DNA of 25,313 nt from a virus: the IMG/VR virus record IMGVR_UViG_3300006749_000112, positions 1 to 25,313 of that record, one strand, 5' to 3'. The translations under genes were made by a program, and so were the position numbers. Below are positions 1 through 12,292 of the stretch, in pieces; the first letter of the stretch is position 1; each line of letters starts with the position of its first letter. The notes under the pieces are model-generated. The model was not told where the DNA came from. It was given only the letters and a program-made list of their open reading frames with translations, and searched no databases.

Positions 1-11
1 ATGTTGTCCAT
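1..11 (-). CDS. start of a further left-arm gene, cut by window edge
   Basis: An ATG reads leftward from position 11 and only Met-Asp-Asn is visible before the window ends. The start is supported by context: the leader 11-mer shared by all left-arm transcription/processing units lies at 22-32, and a structured element (38-93) precedes it, exactly as for the genes starting at 748, 2189 and 3086. No product can be named. Confidence 0.45.
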
Positions 12-37
12 TGGTGTTGGATTGAAGTTTGAGATTT

Positions 38-93
38 AGAGTGTTCGTGTGTTACACTCTTCACTACGTTCAGAGTTGTAACACACTCACTCT
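38..93 (-). ncRNA. structured leader element H1 (hairpin family, unknown class)
   Basis: This is a long imperfect hairpin in the minus-strand transcript. Pairings are 38-43 with 88-93 (6 bp), an asymmetric internal loop (44-46 opposite 87, RNA GAA opposite A), 47-55 with 78-86 (9 bp), a one-base bulge at 77, 56-60 with 72-76 (5 bp), and an 11-base apical loop (61-71). It starts a few bases after the stop codon of the gene ending at 97 and is followed by the shared leader 11-mer. No U-run follows the stem, so it does not look like a Rho-independent terminator. The same architecture with different sequence recurs at 770-830, 2213-2268 and 3126-3178. Function is unknown. Confidence 0.7.
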
Positions 94-96
94 CTA

Positions 97-246
97 TTAG
101 GGGTTGAGGTCGAACTGAGTGTTCTTGAATGCCTCTTCGAGGCGCTTCTTGTTACCTGCATCCGCAGCATACCATGTATCAATGAGGCGGTATTCAAAGC
201 TACCGCAGTTCTGCTGTCGCAGTTCAAGCGTTTCGTGTTGTGTCAT
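97..246 (-). CDS. small hypothetical protein, 49 aa
   Basis: The reading frame is open further upstream, but I choose the ATG at 246 because it overlaps the TGA of the preceding gene as ATGA (246-243), the arrangement seen at two other junctions in this arm. That gives a 49-residue, fairly polar protein beginning MTQHETLELR with a central aromatic patch (FEYRLIDTWYAA). I do not recognise it. It is the third gene of a translationally coupled trio (748 to 97), so it is probably made together with its two upstream partners. The hairpin element H1 follows its stop. Confidence 0.6.
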   Translation of the reverse strand: MTQHETLELRQQNCGSFEYRLIDTWYAADAGNKKRLEEAFKNTQFDLNP

Positions 247-437
247 TTGTCTGTTGTTTCTACTCCCCACCACGCAATCTCTTCGTCGTGGATGCGGAAC
301 TCGTGGCATTCTTGCAGTTCGTTTTCCCATACCCCGACCCACACGCCGTGGTCGTCAGGTGCGCCCTGTATATGGGCGGCTTGGAATCCTTTTTTTTGCA
401 GTGCCTTGACTGCTGATTCGCATTGTTCTTGTGTCAT
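243..437 (-). CDS. small acidic hypothetical protein, 64 aa
   Basis: The start overlaps the stop of the gene at 434-748 as ATGA (437-434), and its own stop overlaps the start of the next gene the same way, so translation is probably coupled on both sides. The 64-residue product begins MTQEQCESAVKALQKKGF, a likely amphipathic helix, and continues into a Trp-rich acidic half (VWVGVWENEL, EEIAWWGVE). The N-terminal MTQ start is shared with the downstream 49-aa protein but the rest differs. Not recognised; probably an early or accessory phage protein. Confidence 0.7.
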   Translation of the reverse strand: MTQEQCESAVKALQKKGFQAAHIQGAPDDHGVWVGVWENELQECHEFRIHDEEIAWWGVETTDK

Positions 438-748
438 AGGTCAATGATTACGCCCTTGGATTCAAGAGCATCGGTGATAAATTCAGGGAGTTCGAAGCAT
501 CCATCGTACCCCGTGAGGCGTACATCTCCGTTGTCATCCCAATACACTTCGAGGATTCCGCCTGCATAGAAGCGGTCACCTCCCGTGTCAAGGTCGTAGG
601 TTTCGTACCACCCACCTGTTCCGTGGTTGGGGTCAATCTCTACGGTGGTGTCCATCTCTACGCCCGTGGCTCGGTCTATGTCAATGTCGTATGCCGTGGT
701 CATAGCTACGTGTGGTAGCGTGGTCTTGAAGTCTAGTTTGAATTTCAT
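434..748 (-). CDS. hypothetical protein, 104 aa
   Basis: The frame is open to about 826, but the upstream part only translates the leader. The ATG at 748 lies directly after the leader 11-mer (753-763), as in the other left-arm genes, so I take it as the start. The 104-residue product begins MKFKLDFKTT and is acidic and Asp/Gly/Tyr-rich (GTGGWYETYDLDTGG, LEVYWDDNGDVRL), suggesting a small beta-rich fold; the C-terminus is LPEFITDALESKG. There are no recognisable catalytic motifs. It is preceded by structured element H2 and overlaps the next gene by ATGA. Confidence 0.75.
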   Translation of the reverse strand: MKFKLDFKTTLPHVAMTTAYDIDIDRATGVEMDTTVEIDPNHGTGGWYETYDLDTGGDRFYAGGILEVYWDDNGDVRLTGYDGCFELPEFITDALESKGVIIDL

Positions 749-769
749 GGGGTTGAAGTTTGAGTGGTT

Positions 770-830
770 TAGTGTGTTCGTGTGTATCACTTCTACACTT
801 CGTTTAAGAAGGTGATACACACTCACACTA
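770..830 (-). ncRNA. structured leader element H2 (hairpin family, unknown class)
   Basis: Second member of the family. Pairings are 770-776 with 824-830 (7 bp), an internal loop 777-779 opposite 823 (RNA GAA opposite A, identical to H1), 780-790 with 812-822 (11 bp), a bulge at 811, 791-794 with 807-810 (4 bp), and a 12-base apical loop (795-806). It lies two bases after the TAA of the lipoprotein gene and just before the leader 11-mer of the gene starting at 748. Stem bases differ from H1 at many positions while pairing is kept, which argues for selection on structure. There is no U-tract. Confidence 0.72.
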
Positions 831-832
831 CA

Positions 833-985
833 TTAGTTGTAAGCGGCACATTCGGTGTTGCCAACAGGTTTGATGTACTGCGTATGTGCATCATATGTCG
901 TACAGCCTTGCAAAACGACTACGACCATCAGTGCCGCCATCCATGCGAGGAAGGCAAGGAACGCATAGTTAACTCGATTCTTCAT
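833..985 (-). CDS. small lipoprotein, 50 aa
   Basis: This 50-residue gene begins MKNRVNYAFL, followed by a hydrophobic stretch (residues 8-25, AFLAWMAALMVVVVL) and a lipobox LQGC at 25-28, so Cys28 is the expected lipidation site. The mature part is only about 23 residues and contains one more Cys. A tiny phage lipoprotein could be an outer-membrane spanin or a superinfection-exclusion factor, but no i-spanin partner is evident next to it, so neither role is claimed. It starts 25 bases after the stop of the 1011-1163 gene, without a leader 11-mer, so it probably shares that transcript. Element H2 follows. Confidence 0.72.
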   Translation of the reverse strand: MKNRVNYAFLAFLAWMAALMVVVVLQGCTTYDAHTQYIKPVGNTECAAYN

Positions 986-1010
986 GTAATATGTATTATG
1001 TGTTTGTGTT

Positions 1011-1163
1011 TCAGTTAGTTACGTTCCACACCTCATCAAAGATGAAGCGGTTTTCTCTACGCATATATGATACGTAGTTGTCGTAGTGGTTTTTGTCTTT
1101 GAATGTTTTAACAACAACAAACTTTCTTCCGTTAGGGATGATGAATTGTATTTTCTTTGTCAT
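1011..1163 (-). CDS. small basic hypothetical protein, 50 aa
   Basis: The ATG at 1163 overlaps the TGA of the upstream gene as ATGA (1163-1160), giving a 50-residue basic protein that begins MTKKIQFIIPNGRKFVVVKT. A beta-strand-like N-terminus is followed by an aromatic/basic segment (KNHYDNYVSYMRRENRF) and ends DEVWNVTN. Coding is supported by the start/stop overlap, the absence of a leader element at this junction, and the tight packing with neighbours. Not recognised. Confidence 0.65.
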   Translation of the reverse strand: MTKKIQFIIPNGRKFVVVKTFKDKNHYDNYVSYMRRENRFIFDEVWNVTN

Positions 1164-1762
1164 GTCCATAGTTCTCTGATGACCAACCATACCACAGCTT
1201 GCAAATGTGCAGGGGCATACCCCATGTCATATGAGATGCGTTGGAACTTGCGTTCCAATAGGTCGTATTGCTTCGGTGTAATCTGGTTGTCCAAGTTCTT
1301 CCGAGTCTTCGACTTGGTCTGAAAGCTGTACACCATCCATGTATCAATCGTGACAGCATTCATATCAAATGCACCCACATTCAAAGCGAATCGGTGAGTC
1401 TTTCGGCTTGCTTCGTGGACTTGAATCAGTCCCTTTGCAATGTTGAATGCCTTGACCTTGTTGGAATTGAAGGTGCTGACCTTCACACGATCGTGTGATA
1501 CGTCATCATGTACAGCTTGAAAGACGTTCCAAGCATCAATCTTGTTTCGTTCCCATCTGTTTCTCGGAGAGAGAGCCGAGATGACTCCCCCTGCACGGAG
1601 TGGTGATATGTCGAATTCATTGGACAGCATCAGAGCAAAGCCCTTGGCTTCGTCGTACCATGCCACACCATCTTGTATGACATCATCCGTTGCCATGTCA
1701 TGCCAATGTGATACGTTGCTACGCATCTTTGACATCATCTTGTCAAATGTTTTTGGATTCAT
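1160..1762 (-). CDS. conserved phage protein, 200 aa (DUF7178-like)
   Basis: The start is placed at 1762, after the leader 11-mer (1773-1783) and 25 bases downstream of the predicted cleavage site of hammerhead 1. The 200-aa product carries GVISALSPRNRWERNKIDAW around residues 58-77, VTIDTWMVYSF near 138-148, and a C-terminal YAPAHLQAVVWLVIRE. From memory this pattern (ISALSP...W..N, a basic KVKAFNIAKG segment, VTIDTW, QAVVW) resembles a phage family annotated DUF7178, sometimes likened to helix-hairpin-helix DNA glycosylase folds. The family link is moderate and no activity is claimed. It overlaps the next gene by ATGA. Confidence 0.8.
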   Translation of the reverse strand: MNPKTFDKMMSKMRSNVSHWHDMATDDVIQDGVAWYDEAKGFALMLSNEFDISPLRAGGVISALSPRNRWERNKIDAWNVFQAVHDDVSHDRVKVSTFNSNKVKAFNIAKGLIQVHEASRKTHRFALNVGAFDMNAVTIDTWMVYSFQTKSKTRKNLDNQITPKQYDLLERKFQRISYDMGYAPAHLQAVVWLVIRELWT

Positions 1763-1781
1763 CGTAGATGATTTGAAGTTT

Positions 1782-1833
1782 GATACAGACACCCCGAAGG
1801 GTGTTTCGTCCACTCAGGACTCGTCAGTGTACC
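1782..1833 (-). ncRNA. hammerhead ribozyme 1 (type I)
   Basis: All core elements of a type I hammerhead are present in the minus-strand RNA. Stem I is 1833-1828 with 1787-1782 (6 bp, one G-U). The core CUGACGA is 1827-1821. Stem II is 1820-1817 with 1811-1808 (GUCC/GGAC, loop UGAGU), then GAA at 1807-1805. Stem III is 1804-1799 with 1794-1789 (ACACCC/GGGUGU, loop UUCG). The cleavage triplet GUC ends at C 1788, so cleavage is expected between 1788 and 1787, leaving a 25-base leader with the shared 11-mer before the AUG at 1762. The UGA stop of the upstream gene (1826-1824) is part of the catalytic CUGA. Confidence 0.92.
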
Positions 1834-2189
1834 TCGATTGAGCTTGCGTTGTTGAAGTCGTAGATGGCTTTTTCGTTTCTTGCCTTAGCAAGTTCCATTG
1901 CCACATAGTGTGACCTGACTACGTCAGAAAGTTCGAGATAGAAGAACCCTTGGTCATCGACCCATCCACCTATCACTTGGAACGGGTCACCATGTGATGA
2001 CGCTTGGATTTTTTTGAACTCTTGTTCAAATGCAATGAATGACAGCGATTCATTGGCACATTTGAACAGCTTGCAGTCAGCGGCTCCGCCGACAGCGTAG
2101 CCAAGTCCGTTATATGTCATTCCGTCTGTCTTGACGCTGAACCCCTCACCGCTTTGGATGAGGTGATACAATGATTGTGTTGAGGCCAT
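1824..2189 (-). CDS. hypothetical protein, 121 aa
   Basis: It starts at the ATG at 2189, just after the leader 11-mer (2194-2204), and stops inside hammerhead 1. The 121-residue product begins MASTQSLYHLIQSGEGFSVK and shows mixed alpha/beta character: a Gly/Ala-rich turn (YNGLGYAVGGAADCK), a segment FIAFEQEFKKIQ, a strand-rich FQVIGGWVDDQGFFYLEL, and a helical C-terminus. Not recognised. The coding sequence holds several short hairpins (1879-1892, 1915-1927, 2013-2030, 2033-2055), fewer per length than the promoter-proximal genes. Structured element H3 precedes it. Confidence 0.75.
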   Translation of the reverse strand: MASTQSLYHLIQSGEGFSVKTDGMTYNGLGYAVGGAADCKLFKCANESLSFIAFEQEFKKIQASSHGDPFQVIGGWVDDQGFFYLELSDVVRSHYVAMELAKARNEKAIYDFNNASSIEVH

Positions 2190-2212
2190 GGTGTTGAAGT
2201 TTGAAGGTTTAT

Positions 2213-2268
2213 GGGTGGTTCGTATATCACTCTATTCGTAAGAACTCATAGAGTGTATATACTCACCC
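2213..2268 (-). ncRNA. structured leader element H3 (hairpin family, unknown class)
   Basis: Third member: 2213-2217 with 2264-2268 (5 bp), an internal loop 2218-2221 opposite 2263, 2222-2227 with 2257-2262 (6 bp), a bulge at 2256, 2228-2235 with 2248-2255 (8 bp), and a 12-base apical loop TCGTAAGAACTC on the plus strand (2236-2247), almost identical to the H4 loop. The outer stem overlaps the TGA of the upstream 34-aa gene (2265-2263). The leader 11-mer and the start at 2189 follow. There is no U-tract. Confidence 0.7.
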
Positions 2269-2367
2269 CCCAATGTTGTCGTTTTGGTTGTGGTTGGCAT
2301 CGACCCATATCATGATGAGTATGATACCTGCGATTGGCATGAGCATGCCGTAGAGAATAATGTCCAT
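2263..2367 (-). CDS. small membrane peptide, 34 aa
   Basis: The ATG at 2367 follows the leader 11-mer (2380-2390) and sits 27 bases after the predicted cut site of hammerhead 2. The 34-residue product begins MDIILYGMLMPIAGIILIMI, one likely transmembrane helix (about residues 2-22), and ends with a short polar tail (DANHNQNDNIGG). Single-pass mini-proteins of this kind occur in phage early and lysis regions, but nothing here identifies a specific role. The frame is open upstream through the ribozyme, but that translation would read the ribozyme and leader and is not preferred. Confidence 0.6.
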   Translation of the reverse strand: MDIILYGMLMPIAGIILIMIWVDANHNQNDNIGG

Positions 2368-2388
2368 CGTAGATGAAGTTTGAAGTTT

Positions 2389-2444
2389 GACACAGACACC
2401 CCCCGAAGGGGGTGTTTCGGCTATTGAAGCCTCGTCAGTGTGCC
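2389..2444 (-). ncRNA. hammerhead ribozyme 2 (type I)
   Basis: A second complete hammerhead in minus-strand RNA. Stem I is 2444-2439 with 2394-2389 (GGCACA/UGUGUC, 6 bp with one G-U). The core CUGACGA is 2438-2432. Stem II is 2431-2428 with 2422-2419 (GGCU/AGCC, loop UCAAU), then GAA 2418-2416. Stem III is 2415-2408 with 2403-2396 (8 bp, loop UUCG), and the GUC triplet ends at C 2395. Stems I, II and III differ from ribozyme 1 by compensating changes, and stem III is two pairs longer. It begins 12 bases after the stop of the 209-aa gene. Cleavage between 2395 and 2394 would leave a 27-base leader before the AUG at 2367. Confidence 0.93.
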
Positions 2445-2456
2445 TGTCATATGATA

Positions 2457-3086
2457 TCACATCATGTCACGGAGTTCACGGAGTGACAAGTCAGAGAATG
2501 AAACCTCATTGGATGTTCCATCCAAGGGGAACTCTGCATCAAGCTTCGCTTGGAAAGCTTTGAGGACTTCAGCCTTACGAGCTAAAGCTCGTTGACGGAT
2601 TCTCTCATCACTGCCGTTGGCTTCGCCAAGCTGTTGAACTGACTGCCGAGCAGCTTCTACCGAAGCTGTCTTAGCCTTGGAACAAGGCTTGACTGGGCTG
2701 TCAGCCTTTCCATGAAAGGCTTTCTCTTGTCTGTCAGCAACTCGTTGCTGTGGAGTAGCTTTCTTGATGGTCGTCTTACGACGACGCTTCGGCTTGGCCT
2801 TAGCCTTCGGCTTGGTCTTGGTCACCTTCGGTGCATCGGGCATCATACCCTGTGACATGAGGAACTGCTTGAACAACTCCATCATCTCATCAGTCCCTTG
2901 GGACTGCTTGTCAGATGTCTTTGACTTGGTTGCCTTCGGCAACTCGATGGCTTCAACGAACTCAGAGAGTTCTTTGATGGCTTGTCTTGCTTGACCCTTT
3001 CTCACCGTTGACGGTGAGAAGTAGAACTCATTGACTGAAACTGAAACTGCTTTCAGCAGTTCGACTCTGTTGGTTGACTTTTTCAT
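2457..3086 (-). CDS. Lys/Arg-rich hypothetical protein, 209 aa
   Basis: It starts at the ATG at 3086, after the leader 11-mer (3106-3116); longer frames only translate the leader. The N-terminal 50 or so residues are predicted helical and contain PSTVRK, similar in spacing and content to PSMVRK in the neighbouring 178-aa protein, suggesting a shared N-terminal domain. Next come a Met-rich stretch (MMELFKQFLMSQGMM), a highly basic linker (about residues 105-130, KAKAKPKRRRK), and a helical C-terminal half ending DLSLRELRDMM. The basic linker suggests nucleic-acid contact, which is inference. The coding sequence is itself dense in perfect short hairpins. Confidence 0.75.
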   Translation of the reverse strand: MKKSTNRVELLKAVSVSVNEFYFSPSTVRKGQARQAIKELSEFVEAIELPKATKSKTSDKQSQGTDEMMELFKQFLMSQGMMPDAPKVTKTKPKAKAKPKRRRKTTIKKATPQQRVADRQEKAFHGKADSPVKPCSKAKTASVEAARQSVQQLGEANGSDERIRQRALARKAEVLKAFQAKLDAEFPLDGTSNEVSFSDLSLRELRDMM

Positions 3087-3097
3087 TGGAAATGAAA
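2509..3097 (-). repeat. array of perfect short hairpins within a coding sequence
   Basis: At least 15 perfect inverted repeats with stems of 5-9 bp and loops of 3-4 bases lie in 589 bases of one gene: 2509-2525, 2540-2552, 2577-2592, 2617-2629, 2651-2668, 2673-2689, 2703-2721, 2735-2750, 2770-2785, 2891-2906, 2929-2943, 2958-2972, 2999-3020, 3045-3061 and 3081-3097. The last encloses the start codon. Sequences differ from hairpin to hairpin, so this is not one repeated unit. The commonest loop is TTC on the plus strand (GAA in RNA). Confidence 0.85.
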
Positions 3098-3125
3098 TTT
3101 GAAAATTGAAGTTTGAATGGTTTGG

Positions 3126-3178
3126 GAGGGTCCTCTCTGACACTCTTCGTAAGACTCAGAGTGTCTGAGAGTCCCCTC
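3126..3178 (-). ncRNA. structured leader element H4 (hairpin family, unknown class)
   Basis: Fourth member: 3126-3130 with 3174-3178 (5 bp), a 2x2 internal loop (3131-3132 opposite 3172-3173; RNA GA opposite GA), 3133-3137 with 3167-3171 (5 bp), a mismatch (3138/3166), 3139-3146 with 3158-3165 (8 bp), and an 11-base apical loop TCGTAAGACTC on the plus strand. It lies between the genes ending at 3202 and starting at 3086, followed by the leader 11-mer. It differs from H1-H3 in having a symmetric internal loop. There is no U-tract. Confidence 0.68.
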
Positions 3179-3201
3179 AGTTGGTCGGCAATCTCTCTGC
3201 T

Positions 3202-3738
3202 TTAGCAGAGTTCGAATCGTCGGAGTTTCTCTTCCAAGGGAAGAGCATTGGCTTTCTCATATTCCTCTTCGAGGAATGTGCATTGGAATTTCATTCCAAA
3301 GGGCTCAAGCAAAGCTTGAATCTTACTGATGTAAACATCAGTATTGGAGGCTTCATCACAATCTACGAAGTAGATAGTGCCATCTTCGTCGGTTTCGAAA
3401 TCTGCAAGATTTTCGAAGTCAAGTAGAAGTTCAAGCCATTCATCGACTTCGTCGAATACTGCCTTCGGCAGTTCAATCTTGTCCTTCGGACAAGTCAAAG
3501 ACATCGTTTCACCTTCGGTGAACATGAAGTCCCATTCAGTCATAAGATGACTGATGTTCAGTACCTCTGGAAGAGGTTCTGATGGATAGTCCCAAGATTC
3601 CATTGGAACCTCTTCGAGGTTCTCAATGACCTTCAGAGCTTCTTTCAGAAGCTTGATGGCATGGTTCTTACGAACCATGGATGGATGGTTGATGGCTTGG
3701 TTTGCAGCTTTAGCTGCAGCTGTTGCTGAGTACTTCAT
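3202..3738 (-). CDS. acidic hypothetical protein, 178 aa
   Basis: I place the start at 3738, ten bases after the upstream TAA, where the bases before the ATG resemble those before the ATG at 3940; an in-frame ATG at 3768 inside the upstream gene is the alternative (188 aa). The N-terminus is Ala-rich and helical (YSATAAAKAANQAINHPSMV) and shares PS-x-VRK with the 209-aa protein. The rest is acidic, with strand-like DGTIYFVDCDE near residue 125, IQALLEPFG (a motif repeated in the 63-aa upstream protein) and a Glu-rich helical C-terminus. Not recognised. Its sequence is saturated with short hairpins, and element H4 follows. Confidence 0.75.
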   Translation of the reverse strand: MKYSATAAAKAANQAINHPSMVRKNHAIKLLKEALKVIENLEEVPMESWDYPSEPLPEVLNISHLMTEWDFMFTEGETMSLTCPKDKIELPKAVFDEVDEWLELLLDFENLADFETDEDGTIYFVDCDEASNTDVYISKIQALLEPFGMKFQCTFLEEEYEKANALPLEEKLRRFELC

Positions 3739-3748
3739 CTTCGATGAA

Positions 3749-3940
3749 TTAGTGGTTTTCGATTTCATCTACGATGACAGCTTGCTCTTCGGTACTGAGT
3801 TCACAGAACTCAAGACAGAGCCAAAGGCTCTCTATGTCAGCAGTCCAAAACAGCTCAAGCAAAGCTTGAATACGGGCTTCAGTCAGTGTAACTGACTGCT
3901 TGTAAGACTCTTTCAGAGTCTGAGTGTTGATTGATTTCAT
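3749..3940 (-). CDS. small acidic hypothetical protein, 63 aa
   Basis: This is the first gene behind the leftward promoter. Its ATG at 3940 lies after the leader 11-mer (3951-3961), and a short hairpin (3965-3976) stands near the expected 5' end. The 63-residue product is predicted helical, begins MKSINTQTLKESYKQSVTLT, contains RIQALLELFW (shared IQALLE with the next protein, encoded by the same 15-base hairpin) and ends in an acidic helix EEQAVIVDEIENH. Not recognised. Six perfect hairpins lie in its 192 bases. Confidence 0.72.
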   Translation of the reverse strand: MKSINTQTLKESYKQSVTLTEARIQALLELFWTADIESLWLCLEFCELSTEEQAVIVDEIENH

Positions 3941-3980
3941 CGGAGATGAATTGAAGTTTGAGTTGGCAAGATTGCCGCTG

Positions 3981-4012
3981 CAAAGGTATGGTCAACTTTC
4001 GGCAAAATCCAA
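3981..4012 (-). promoter_or_regulatory. Bacteroidota-type promoter for the left arm
   Basis: On the minus strand, TACCTTTG (3988-3981) matches the -7 consensus TAnnTTTG, with TTG (4012-4010) 21 bases upstream as the -33 element. The transcript would start near 3975 with a hairpin (3965-3976) and then the leader 11-mer. I saw no equally good leftward box between later genes in this arm, so it may drive the whole cluster. Confidence 0.75.
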
Positions 4013-4172
4013 GCCCCTTCTTCCTGCGCGATTTCTCCCGCCTGAAGACTACGTAGTAGTCCGCGTGGAAACAGGTAAAGAAGCGGCCTCATGTGCAGGC
4101 ATGACGTGGGCATCATGCGAGGCGAGGTGAGATTTTTGTGTTGGTATTTGAATTGTCAACAGCAAACCCTGT

Positions 4173-4213
4173 GCGTTACCATGCGTGGTCCTTCGGACTG
4201 CGTGCTGTAACGT
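4173..4213. other. long imperfect hairpin in the divergent region
   Basis: Pairing runs from the outer stem 4174-4179 with 4207-4212, through a 2x2 internal loop (4180-4181 with 4205-4206), to 4182-4191 with 4195-4204 (including G-U pairs) and a TTC loop. A second small hairpin (4216-4229) follows. There is no clear T-tract, so a terminator is not supported; it may be part of a small RNA or a protein-binding cruciform. Confidence 0.5.
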
Positions 4214-4512
4214 GTGGGGTTTTGTCCCCCTGCTTGGAATTGCTATAGAATCCTGACGATTTTTGAAACCGATGGTTACCGAAGGTAAAAAGTCAGAAAG
4301 TTTTGCAGTAACATCGAAGATGTTAAGGGGGGTGGGGTCAAGGGTCGCGTTCGGGCAGACGTGACGGACGTGTACAAATGTATATAATCCCCAAACCACG
4401 TGTTTCTGATCAGATTTTGCCAGTACCGTTCGCGCATAGTTTCCGCACGCAAGCGTTTAACAACAGCCTAATCAATAACTTACAGCCTGTTGCCTCAAGA
4501 GTTACTTCAATC

Positions 4513-4543
4513 TTGACTTTTGAAAAAAAAATTTATACCTTCG
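4513..4543 (+). promoter_or_regulatory. possible rightward promoter
   Basis: TTG (4513-4515), a 20-base spacer containing an A9 run, and TACCTTCG (4536-4543), one mismatch from TAnnTTTG, match the Bacteroidota layout. It would give a leader or small RNA of about 110 bases before the gene at 4666, which also has its own closer -7 box. Confidence 0.45.
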
Positions 4544-4652
4544 CATAGCTGATAAGGTGGTAGCAAACGCTCATAAGCATATACAGCTGTTCAGAGTGTT
4601 TTTTGTTGGTACGTGGAATCAGTTATTGATTTAGACGCAAGGCTTGCTGTGC

Positions 4653-10086: not shown

Positions 10087-10160
10087 GCGCCTGTAGCTCA
10101 ACAGGATAGAGCAGCGCACTTCTAATGCGCAGGTTTCAGGTTCGAGTCCTGACAGGCGCA
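10087..10160 (+). tRNA. tRNA-Arg (anticodon UCU)
   Basis: A full cloverleaf can be drawn: acceptor GCGCCTG (10087-10093) with CAGGCGC (10153-10159); D arm GCTC/GAGC (10096-10112) with loop AACAGGATA; anticodon arm GCGCA/TGCGC with loop CTTCTAA, anticodon TCT at 10121-10123; T arm CAGG-TTCGAGT-CCTG; discriminator A. CCA is not encoded. It reads AGA/AGG, and AGA is frequent in the phage genes here, so it may offset host codon bias. It sits 11 bases before the terminase ATG. Confidence 0.95.
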
Positions 10161-10171
10161 CAATTTAATTC

Positions 10172-12292
10172 ATGGCTGGACTCCTAAACATACAAGAATA
10201 CGATGAGGCTGTTATCTCAATTTGCCCCGAGGGTACAACGGGAGACATTATTTCGGTCGGTGATATACTCATTGCACTTCCCGCTCAGCCTCCCAAAGAG
10301 GAGATTGAAGGATATGGACGTCCAAACGACATGCAGCTGTGGCAGAGGGTTTCTATGCCAGAGGAGCTGTCTAGGGTTAAGAGTATGGACGAATGGTCTG
10401 AAACGCCGAGAGAGTTCAGACAAAAGTTTTCTCCGTATATCGAGAAGGAATTTAGCCGTAGGCGTAACGGCTTTTGGTTTTACAATGACGGTAAGCCTAC
10501 ATATATTACGGGCAGGCACTACATGATGCTTCAGTGGACTCGGATGGACATAGGTTATCCGAACTTCTTGAGTTTCCAAAGAGATATTTTCTTACATTTA
10601 GCTGCGTGTGAGGCGGACCCCCGCTGTATCGGACAGCTGTACACTAAGTGTAGGCGGAGTGGGTACACCAATATCTGCTCCGCTGTGCTTCTTGATGAAG
10701 CCACGCAGGTCAAAGATAAGCTCCTAGGTATCCAGTCAAAGACTGGTAAGGACGCACAAGAAAATATATTCATGAAGAAGGTGGTCTACATGTTCCGCCA
10801 CTACCCCTTTTTCTTCAAGCCCATTCAAGATGGTACCACTAACCCACGCATGGAGTTGGCTTTTCGCGAGCCAAGTAAGAGAATCACGAAGAAGAATAAG
10901 ACTGCGCAAACGGGCGAAGCTCTTAATACGATAGTCAACTGGAAGAACACCACAAACAATGCTTACGATGGAGAGAAGCTCCATATCTTGTACCTCGATG
11001 AGGCTGGAAAATGGGAAAGACCTACAGACATAAGAGATGCCTGGAGGATTCAACGGACGTGTTTGATCGTCGGGCGAAAAATAATCGGAAAGGCCCTGGT
11101 CGGAAGCACGGTAAATCCAATGGACAAGGGCGGAAAAGAGTACAAAGAATTATGGAGGGACTCGAATCCTATAGAGAGGAATGCGAATGGAAGAACGAAG
11201 ACGGGTCTGTATAGATTGTTTATTCCTGCGTTTGAGTCTCTAGAAGGTTTTTTTGATAGGCATGGCAATCCGATTGTGAATGATCCAATCAAAACTGCAG
11301 AAGGTCTTGATGGCGAAGACATATACATGGGGGCTAGGACGTACCTCAAGAACGAGCGTCAAGCCCTGACGGACAACGCTACTGAATTAAATGAGGTTAT
11401 CCGACAGTTCCCATTTACAGAAGATGAAGCGTTCAGAGACAGCGTTCAGGGCAGTACCTTTAATATTGCAAAGATCTATGAGCAGATCCAAAGCAACGAT
11501 GAGCTGTATCCAAATCCAGTTGTTGTAGGAAACTTTGTATGGCAAAACGGCCAGAAAGATACCAAGGTTGTATTTAAGCCTGACCCTAACGGTAGGTTTA
11601 GGGTCGCTTGGATGCCGCCAGACGAACTAAGAAGCAAAGAAAAGTTGGAGCGGGGAAAGAGGGTCCCACCGCATCCATGGCTAGGTGTCGGTGGTATTGA
11701 CTCCTATGATCTTGATGCCACAGTTGATGGAAGAGGTTCCAAGGGTGCCATGCATTTGTACAATAAATTCAACATGCACCATCCGTGCAACATATTTGTT
11801 GTTGAGTATGCGTCTCGCCCACCACTTGCTAGTATCTTCTATGAGGATTGTTTGATGGCTGCTGTGTTTTACGGATACCCCCTCCTAATTGAGAACAACA
11901 AGTATGGGATAGCCAGATATTTTGAACAAAGGGGCTACGATGGCTACCTGCTAGGAAGACCGTCCCACCTAAAATCTTCATCAGGCGTTTCTAAGGTAAA
12001 AACAAAGGGTATACCGTCTAATTCACAAGACGTTATCCAAGCTCATGCTCAAGCTATTGAAGCTTTTATTCACGAGCACGTTGGGTTTAACGCAGACACT
12101 GGTGAGTTTGGCGCTATGTACTTCAACAGAACGCTAGAAGACTGGATTGGTTTTAGGATTGACAACAGAACTAAGTTTGACCTTACAATTAGTTCTGGGT
12201 TATGCCTTCTTGCTGCGCAAAAACAAAAACAAAAACCAAAGAAAGACTTTGCAGAGAGCAAGTTTTTCAGGCGATATAAGGTAATCGGTTGA
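10172..12292 (+). CDS. terL: terminase large subunit, 706 aa
   Basis: ATPase-nuclease motor that packages DNA into proheads. The Walker A-like stretch YTKCRRSGYTN (residues 157-167, KxRRSGxT type) and Walker B LYLDEAGKWE (about 273-282) are separated by the expected spacing; a coupling-type motif VGSTVNPMDKGG follows (about 310-322). The C-terminal half contains GVGGIDSYDLDATV, the first acidic strand of the RNase H-like nuclease, and later IENNKYGIARYFEQRGYDGY. The long N-terminal extension (about 110 residues) with WFYNDGKPTYITGRHYMML is typical of large terminases in Bacteroidota phages. It follows tRNA-Arg and precedes portal. Confidence 0.9.
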   Translation: MAGLLNIQEYDEAVISICPEGTTGDIISVGDILIALPAQPPKEEIEGYGRPNDMQLWQRVSMPEELSRVKSMDEWSETPREFRQKFSPYIEKEFSRRRNGFWFYNDGKPTYITGRHYMMLQWTRMDIGYPNFLSFQRDIFLHLAACEADPRCIGQLYTKCRRSGYTNICSAVLLDEATQVKDKLLGIQSKTGKDAQENIFMKKVVYMFRHYPFFFKPIQDGTTNPRMELAFREPSKRITKKNKTAQTGEALNTIVNWKNTTNNAYDGEKLHILYLDEAGKWERPTDIRDAWRIQRTCLIVGRKIIGKALVGSTVNPMDKGGKEYKELWRDSNPIERNANGRTKTGLYRLFIPAFESLEGFFDRHGNPIVNDPIKTAEGLDGEDIYMGARTYLKNERQALTDNATELNEVIRQFPFTEDEAFRDSVQGSTFNIAKIYEQIQSNDELYPNPVVVGNFVWQNGQKDTKVVFKPDPNGRFRVAWMPPDELRSKEKLERGKRVPPHPWLGVGGIDSYDLDATVDGRGSKGAMHLYNKFNMHHPCNIFVVEYASRPPLASIFYEDCLMAAVFYGYPLLIENNKYGIARYFEQRGYDGYLLGRPSHLKSSSGVSKVKTKGIPSNSQDVIQAHAQAIEAFIHEHVGFNADTGEFGAMYFNRTLEDWIGFRIDNRTKFDLTISSGLCLLAAQKQKQKPKKDFAESKFFRRYKVIG

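Follow-up and report, generated by a model that had tools for sequence, protein, structure and literature searches.

Hundreds of bacterial hammerhead ribozymes were reported in 2011, including clusters flanking single phage genes, and they were proposed to cut transcripts into operon- or gene-length mRNAs (Perreault 2011, PMC3088659). Several of the clustered hammerheads cleave in vitro, and one set does so in E. coli (PMC3088659). A 2017 review noted the tie to phages and treated the biological role of these ribozymes in bacteria and phages as an open question (PMC6155905), while a 2023 paper recalls the enrichment of hammerheads near Mu-like phage genes and suggests that any self-cleaving ribozyme could occupy such places.

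Here, we describe a viral DNA stretch of 25,313 nucleotides (IMG/VR record IMGVR_UViG_3300006749_000112, hereafter the window), in which two hammerheads, HH1 and HH2, and four long hairpins, HP1-HP4, lie at gene boundaries of a minus-strand operon. Like the 2011 clusters, neighboring hammerheads flank single phage genes. In the 2011 set, however, type II and pseudoknotted hammerheads feature prominently and the identity of the genes varies, whereas the hammerheads of the window and its relatives form a uniform type I subclass with a 6-bp open stem I, a 4-bp stem II and a U-N-A-N-U-like loop, set at a fixed spacing to stop and start codons and exchanged with hairpins at orthologous genes. The initial annotation had singled out the punctuation of one operon by two hammerheads as the notable part, but this is not the new element, since both the clusters and the idea of single-gene mRNAs were published in 2011 (PMC3088659). 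A literature search that reached few subscription papers returned none on the stop/start placement or the hairpin exchange.

The operon belongs to a tailed marine phage akin to those of Flavobacterium and Cellulophaga. Its terminase is closest overall to that of an unclassified spring-water phage (47%) and, among named phages, to those of the Flavobacterium elemo phages (39%) and of Maribacter and Cellulophaga phages (33-38%), which makes a marine Bacteroidota host likely. BLASTN of window positions 1-4650 against phage records returned no match. The terminase gene starts 11 nt downstream of a tRNA-Arg(TCT) gene (10087-10160, plus strand), and several relatives also carry tRNA-Arg(TCT) upstream of terL.

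Structure of the two hammerheads

Read on the minus strand, HH2 is GGCACA-CUGACGA-GGCU(ucaau)AGCC-GAA-ACACCCCC(uucg)GGGGGUGU-C^UGUGUC and HH1 is GGUACA-CUGACGA-GUCC(ugagu)GGAC-GAA-ACACCC(uucg)GGGUGU-C^UGUAUC, where ^ marks the predicted cut (Table 1). Both contain the CUGANGA core and the GAA, which are invariant across 36 aligned relatives, as well as an A15.1-U16.1 pair closing stem III next to a GUC triplet (A...GUC), in keeping with the N-U-H rule. In both folds, stem I is open-ended while stems II and III are closed by loops, corresponding to a type I topology. Folded in isolation or together with some 20 nt of flanking sequence, each RNA has the hammerhead as its minimum free energy (MFE) structure. 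Once 85 nt of upstream sequence are included, competing pairings arise with the end of the preceding gene, which concerns HH1 most; in a 96-nt context, the fold z of HH1 is only -0.57. Among the hammerheads, loop II is conserved, as are the A flanks of stem I, a pattern compatible with a putative tertiary contact between the stem II loop and the stem I region.

Table 1 Features of the minus-strand operon, in window coordinates
Feature	Position	Strand	Details
HH2 hammerhead, type I	2444-2389	minus	sequence, MFE fold, trained covariance model
HH2 stem I	2444-2439 with 2394-2389	minus
HH2 core	2438-2432	minus	CUGACGA
HH2 stem II	2431-2428 with 2422-2419	minus	loop UCAAU
HH2 GAA	2418-2416	minus
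HH2 stem III	2415-2408 with 2403-2396	minus	loop UUCG
HH2 H17 and predicted cleavage	C2395; 2395/2394	minus
Leader left by HH2 cleavage	2368-2394	minus	27 nt; ATG at 2367
HH1 hammerhead, type I	1833-1782	minus	sequence, MFE fold, trained covariance model
HH1 stem I	1833-1828 with 1787-1782	minus
HH1 core	1827-1821	minus
HH1 stem II	1820-1817 with 1811-1808	minus	loop UGAGU
HH1 GAA	1807-1805	minus
HH1 stem III	1804-1799 with 1794-1789	minus
HH1 H17 and predicted cleavage	C1788; 1788/1787	minus
Leader left by HH1 cleavage	1763-1787	minus	25 nt; ATG at 1762
HP1	38-93	minus	A/GAA basal internal loop; apical GA-AC-GUA-GU-GA; fold z -5.7
HP2	770-830	minus	A/GAA basal internal loop; variant apical loop UAAACGAAGUGU; fold z -5.1
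HP3	2212-2272	minus	basal GA/GA; bulged A; apical GA-GU-UCUU-AC-GA; fold z -6.6
HP4	3126-3178	minus	basal GA/GA; A.A mismatch; apical GA-GU-CUU-AC-GA; fold z -4.8
CAAACTTCAA of the operon's first gene	3951-3960	minus	no such hammerhead or hairpin upstream
CAAACTTCAA after HP4	3106-3115	minus
CAAACTTCAA after HH2	2389-2380	minus	overlaps last base of stem I
CAAACTTCAA after HP3	2194-2203	minus
CAAACTTCAA after HH1	1782-1773	minus	overlaps last base of stem I
CAAACTTCAA after HP2	753-762	minus
CAAACTTCAA after HP1	22-31	minus
209-aa gene upstream of HH2	2457-3086	minus	ATG at 3086
34-aa gene after HH2	2263-2367	minus	MDIILYGMLMPIAGIILIMIWVDANHNQNDNIGG
121-aa gene between HP3 and HH1	1824-2189	minus	'GFSV...YAVGGA' family
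200-aa gene after HH1	1160-1762	minus	PHROG 3842 / Pfam DUF7178

The initial annotation had reported two complete type I hammerheads on this strand, and we found the core, GAA, GUC and all three stems intact in each, with the positions, predicted cleavage sites and distances to the next ATGs as it gave them. The stem II difference it pointed out (GGCU/AGCC in HH2, GUCC/GGAC in HH1) is indeed compensating, and stem I shows the same, with C-G exchanged for U-A. Its description of the ribozymes as 5' leaders holds for the last 25-27 nt, which lead the next gene; the ribozyme itself would remain as the 3' end of the upstream message. We consider it nearly certain that HH1 and HH2 are real type I hammerheads.

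Conservation of the subclass and its detection

Rfam 15 at gathering thresholds lists neither HH1 nor HH2, a tRNA being its sole match in the window. The match above threshold that the initial annotation had put forward as a check was thus not obtained. Against RF00163 (Hammerhead_1), HH1 scored 21.2 bits (gathering 34) and HH2 was not listed; against RF03152 (RAGATH-1; gathering 56.3), HH2 reached 28.2 bits and HH1 19.8 bits. The resemblance to both families is nevertheless extensive. Type I topology and core are shared with Hammerhead_1, across the whole model of which HH1 aligns, and a type I-like order is shared with RAGATH-1, to which HH2 aligns end to end, even though the upstream hairpin of that model is poorly matched. 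Furthermore, Rfam at gathering called no related hammerhead in the five loci checked, L160, L207, L096 and L193 among them. Because these are missed too, we attribute the low scores of HH1 and HH2 to a limit of the Rfam models, and an abundant group of hammerheads in these phages probably goes largely unannotated.

To search the window independently of Rfam, we used a covariance model, R1, built from 36 hammerheads of other phages with the window excluded. It matched HH1 at 68.2 bits (E 7.5e-16) and HH2 at 61.5 bits (E 4.3e-14), with no third match in the window up to E 10. A pairing-aware descriptor also recovered hammerheads from the window as well as from five contigs retrieved for their similar terminases (L011, L018, L024, L025 and L076), and it gave 0 matches in 2.9 Mb of Markov sequence. 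Similarly, the true core gave 43 matches and each of 30 scrambled cores gave 0 in the same 1.28 Mb, which comprised loci fetched by protein similarity, some of them repeat fetches of one contig. Among GTDB genomes, the core pattern matched 23 times, with both stems closed in only 8 under the limits used; some of the other matches probably have long stem III inserts.

The pairing was then assessed in relatives. Viral contigs were scanned with a pattern for the core and stem II only, leaving stems I and III unconditioned, which yielded at least 138 matches. Among the matches listed that lay away from contig ends, stems I and III were closed in 138 of 138, as opposed to 1 of 138 random places. 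In the gap-free alignment of the 36 relatives, again without the window, all cells (100%) are paired and 14 of the 16 pairs show two-sided changes; the covariation score is 0.833, compared with 0.161 +/- 0.018 after shuffling and at most 0.098 after sliding. Since these 36 were chosen with stem conditions, the unconditioned 138-match test is the cleaner of the two. The proposal of the initial annotation that both elements are maintained as structures is borne out by this pairing. Of 203 distinct hammerheads, 186 have a stem I of exactly 6 bp, and in 191 a C precedes the cut. Multi-copy contigs carry 5, 6 or 9 hammerheads, the maximum of 9 being found in a contig of 5.8 kb.

These data bear on two alternatives. 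Scores below the Rfam thresholds could signify that HH1 and HH2 are decayed or inactive remnants, but the core is invariant, all pairs are kept through extensive covariation in the 36 relatives, and both window copies are intact, so that we give this explanation very little credence. Intrinsic terminators, or hairpins arisen by chance, are an even less probable explanation: the stem III hairpins are strong and GC-rich, as such a reading would have it, but an intrinsic-terminator scan reported none at HH1, HH2 or HP1-HP4, and scrambled cores and Markov sequence yielded no matches.

Finally, R1 also matches isolated phages, namely Flavobacterium phage elemoB (NC_062741, positions 17272-17211; 51.8 bits) and Cellulophaga phages phi19:3 (42.8 bits) and phi18:3 (33.9 bits), as well as three pelagiphages, with Pelagibacter phage HTVC019P scoring 48.9 bits in a looser context.

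Placement between stop and start codons

The predicted cut lies a median of 26 nt before the next start codon (IQR 23-32.5; 203 distinct hammerheads), and this start is ATG in 191 of the 203. On the other side, 194 of 201 hammerheads have an upstream ORF, 40 codons or longer, that ends between 150 nt upstream and the cut. The stop codon of this ORF is the core TGA (of CUGA) in 33 of the 201, including HH1, where positions 1826-1824 terminate the upstream 121-aa gene; it falls in stem I, at offset -4 from the core TGA, in 19, and in the conserved NA|G flank, at offsets -9 and -10, in 52. A stop at the 5' edge combined with an ATG 15-34 nt past the cleavage site was found for 130 of 197 distinct hammerheads (66%), while random positions on the same strand showed this placement in 1.7% of cases, and positions on the opposite strand in 0.5%. 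This arrangement fits intercistronic cleavage. In elemoB, gp69 is annotated as starting within the ribozyme (L381 2535), and an ATG follows roughly 25 nt past the cut; the true start is likely the ATG at about locus position 2578.

The sequence CAAACTTCAA occurs in 7 copies in the window, all on the minus strand, where 0.21 are expected: one at the operon start, two after the hammerheads and four after HP1-HP4. Genes without a preceding element overlap or nearly abut the previous gene, with a largest gap of about 25 nt (1011 to 985). Inverted repeats of the form TTCATYnnnRATGA also occur in the window (9 matches counting both strands, 0.10 expected); at 3950-3937, 3748-3735 and 3096-3083 on the minus strand, start codons sit in the 3' arm of the resulting small hairpin, as they do in relatives.

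The position of the stops raises the possibility of regulation instead of simple punctuation, with upstream translation that ends in or near the core controlling folding, and cleavage being coupled to ribosome traffic. The use of the core TGA as the upstream stop in HH1 and the other hammerheads noted above speaks for it, as does the location of most remaining stops in the 5' flank or stem I. However, if the element merely fills the smallest possible gap, stop and start should lie equally close to it, and hairpins take the same slots; we therefore regard regulation as unlikely, though it is the alternative to be taken most seriously. Much less probable still is the release by the paired hammerheads of segment 2394-1788, to be circularized or used as a separate RNA. 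Two type I hammerheads do bracket the 34-aa and 121-aa genes, and type I products are in principle able to religate (PMC3088659), but the bracket is not conserved, orthologues having a hairpin or nothing at one end. In addition, 83 of 131 hammerhead-bearing loci contain a single hammerhead (many of these loci are fragments), no RtcB ligase was found in 18 related records, several of them fragments, and no circles were found in the 2011 study (PMC3088659).

Hairpins in the hammerhead slots

HP1-HP4 occupy the position of the hammerheads relative to the CAAACTTCAA leader and matched no Rfam family. Each folds into a long, imperfect double-stranded stem of about 20-23 pairs with interruptions. 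The hairpins have an interrupted upper stem in common, and most carry an apical tandem GA enclosing two pairs, which alternate between AC/GU and GU/AC. The apical GA served as the starting point for counting pairs, a whole-hairpin MAFFT alignment having misaligned the lower stem; counted in this way, the stem pairs closest to the loop differ among 25 hairpins (20 loci) while remaining Watson-Crick. The stem ends a median of 36.5 nt before the ATG. The apical motif TCTGAACGNAGTGAAGA was considered as a specific marker and rejected as too generic, being present in many unrelated phages, often in short hairpins; for this reason, hairpins were counted only if the leader follows.

In phage T7, RNase III sites between genes are long imperfect hairpins that separate cistrons. 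By analogy of shape alone, HP1-HP4 are probably RNase III-type sites, although tandem GA motifs and the alternation with ribozymes set the window hairpins apart from those of T7. One could also imagine that the GA-hairpins are self-cleaving RNAs of an undescribed class, so that such operons would be punctuated wholly by ribozymes. Both the basal internal loop (A/GAA, GA/GA, single bulge or mismatch) and the apical loop differ from hairpin to hairpin, so that an invariant unpaired core like that of the hammerhead is absent, and we therefore consider self-cleavage of the hairpins very doubtful.

Other hairpins were seen in related and more distant phages. One of the form GAGAGAG-GA-GTCTAY-GA-CTCTCTC, followed by a conserved stretch like CTAAGGGGCTTTGAGAGTCGGCCC, precedes orthologues of the 209-aa gene or of a 188-aa gene (L075 956-922, minus; L096 9541-9575, plus; L250 5710-5743, plus; L131; L302). 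Long hairpins with a GA-AC-GNA-GU-GA apical loop lie shortly before starts in other phage groups (L269, L279, L283, L321, L280, L360, L293 and L324), some of them repeated within one contig.

Hammerheads in some phages are replaced by hairpins in others in four orthologous gene groups. Orthologues of the 121-aa gene are mostly preceded by a hammerhead (L011, L096, L137, L162, L176, L242, L247, L252, L254, L255 and others), but by a hairpin in the window (HP3) and in L243. Conversely, the 200-aa gene, which follows HH1 in the window, follows a hairpin in L243 and L247. Both states were likewise found for a 'PVGxAVLxLND' gene and for one small gene. In the relatives L228-L230 (about 70% identical), the gene corresponding to that after HH1 has no element, with coding-like sequence directly upstream, so the element in the HH1 slot is dispensable. 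The initial annotation had missed both the four hairpin-bearing gaps of this operon and the exchange.

Some slots hold composite arrangements. In L250 (6880-7055, plus), a hammerhead with the core CTGAAGA in an exchange slot has a stem III insert of about 130 nt, with the base ACACCCGTAACG/CGTTACGTGGTGT still paired. In L193 (7736-7527, minus), one slot contains a hairpin, then a hammerhead and then a tRNA (Rfam 38.8 bits), and in L131 (about 11100-11287) tRNA-like sequence separates a hammerhead-like 3' end from the leader, which it directly precedes.

Because orthologous genes carry either one, hammerhead and hairpin look interchangeable, and we lean towards the hairpins being functional equivalents of the hammerheads. 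On the simplest view, what both have in common is that the transcript is cut just before the standard leader. As the initial annotation proposed, intercistronic punctuation is the best reading of the two hammerheads: the relatives back structure and placement, and cleavage is predicted. Extended to HP1-HP4, intercistronic processing of the phage operon transcript is the explanation we favor with good, though not full, confidence.

In such processing, a long transcript of the minus-strand operon would probably be severed where one gene gives way to the next. At two of these boundaries, a hammerhead would fold once made, and the 2'-OH of C17 would attack at 2395/2394 and 1788/1787. The upstream mRNA would retain its whole ORF plus a compact ribozyme ending in a 2',3'-cyclic phosphate, and the downstream mRNA would begin with a 5'-OH and a leader of 25-27 nt. 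At four other boundaries, the long hairpin in the equivalent place would most likely be a substrate of host RNase III or of a comparable enzyme specific for double strands, with hammerhead and hairpin as alternative routes to the same result. The likely gain for the phage would be that the stability and translation of each cistron become independent, that the leader is released from upstream sequence, and that 5'-OH ends evade 5'-phosphate-dependent decay.

What is new is a hammerhead subclass missed by Rfam, its placement between stop and start, the exchange of its slot with a hairpin, and its presence in the cultured phages elemoB, phi18:3 and phi19:3. With the predicted cut between stop and start and a short leader before unrelated genes in many phages, the placement is tight enough to test the role of the hammerheads. 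A second RNA structure in the same slot, together with isolated and sequenced phages, makes this old question testable.
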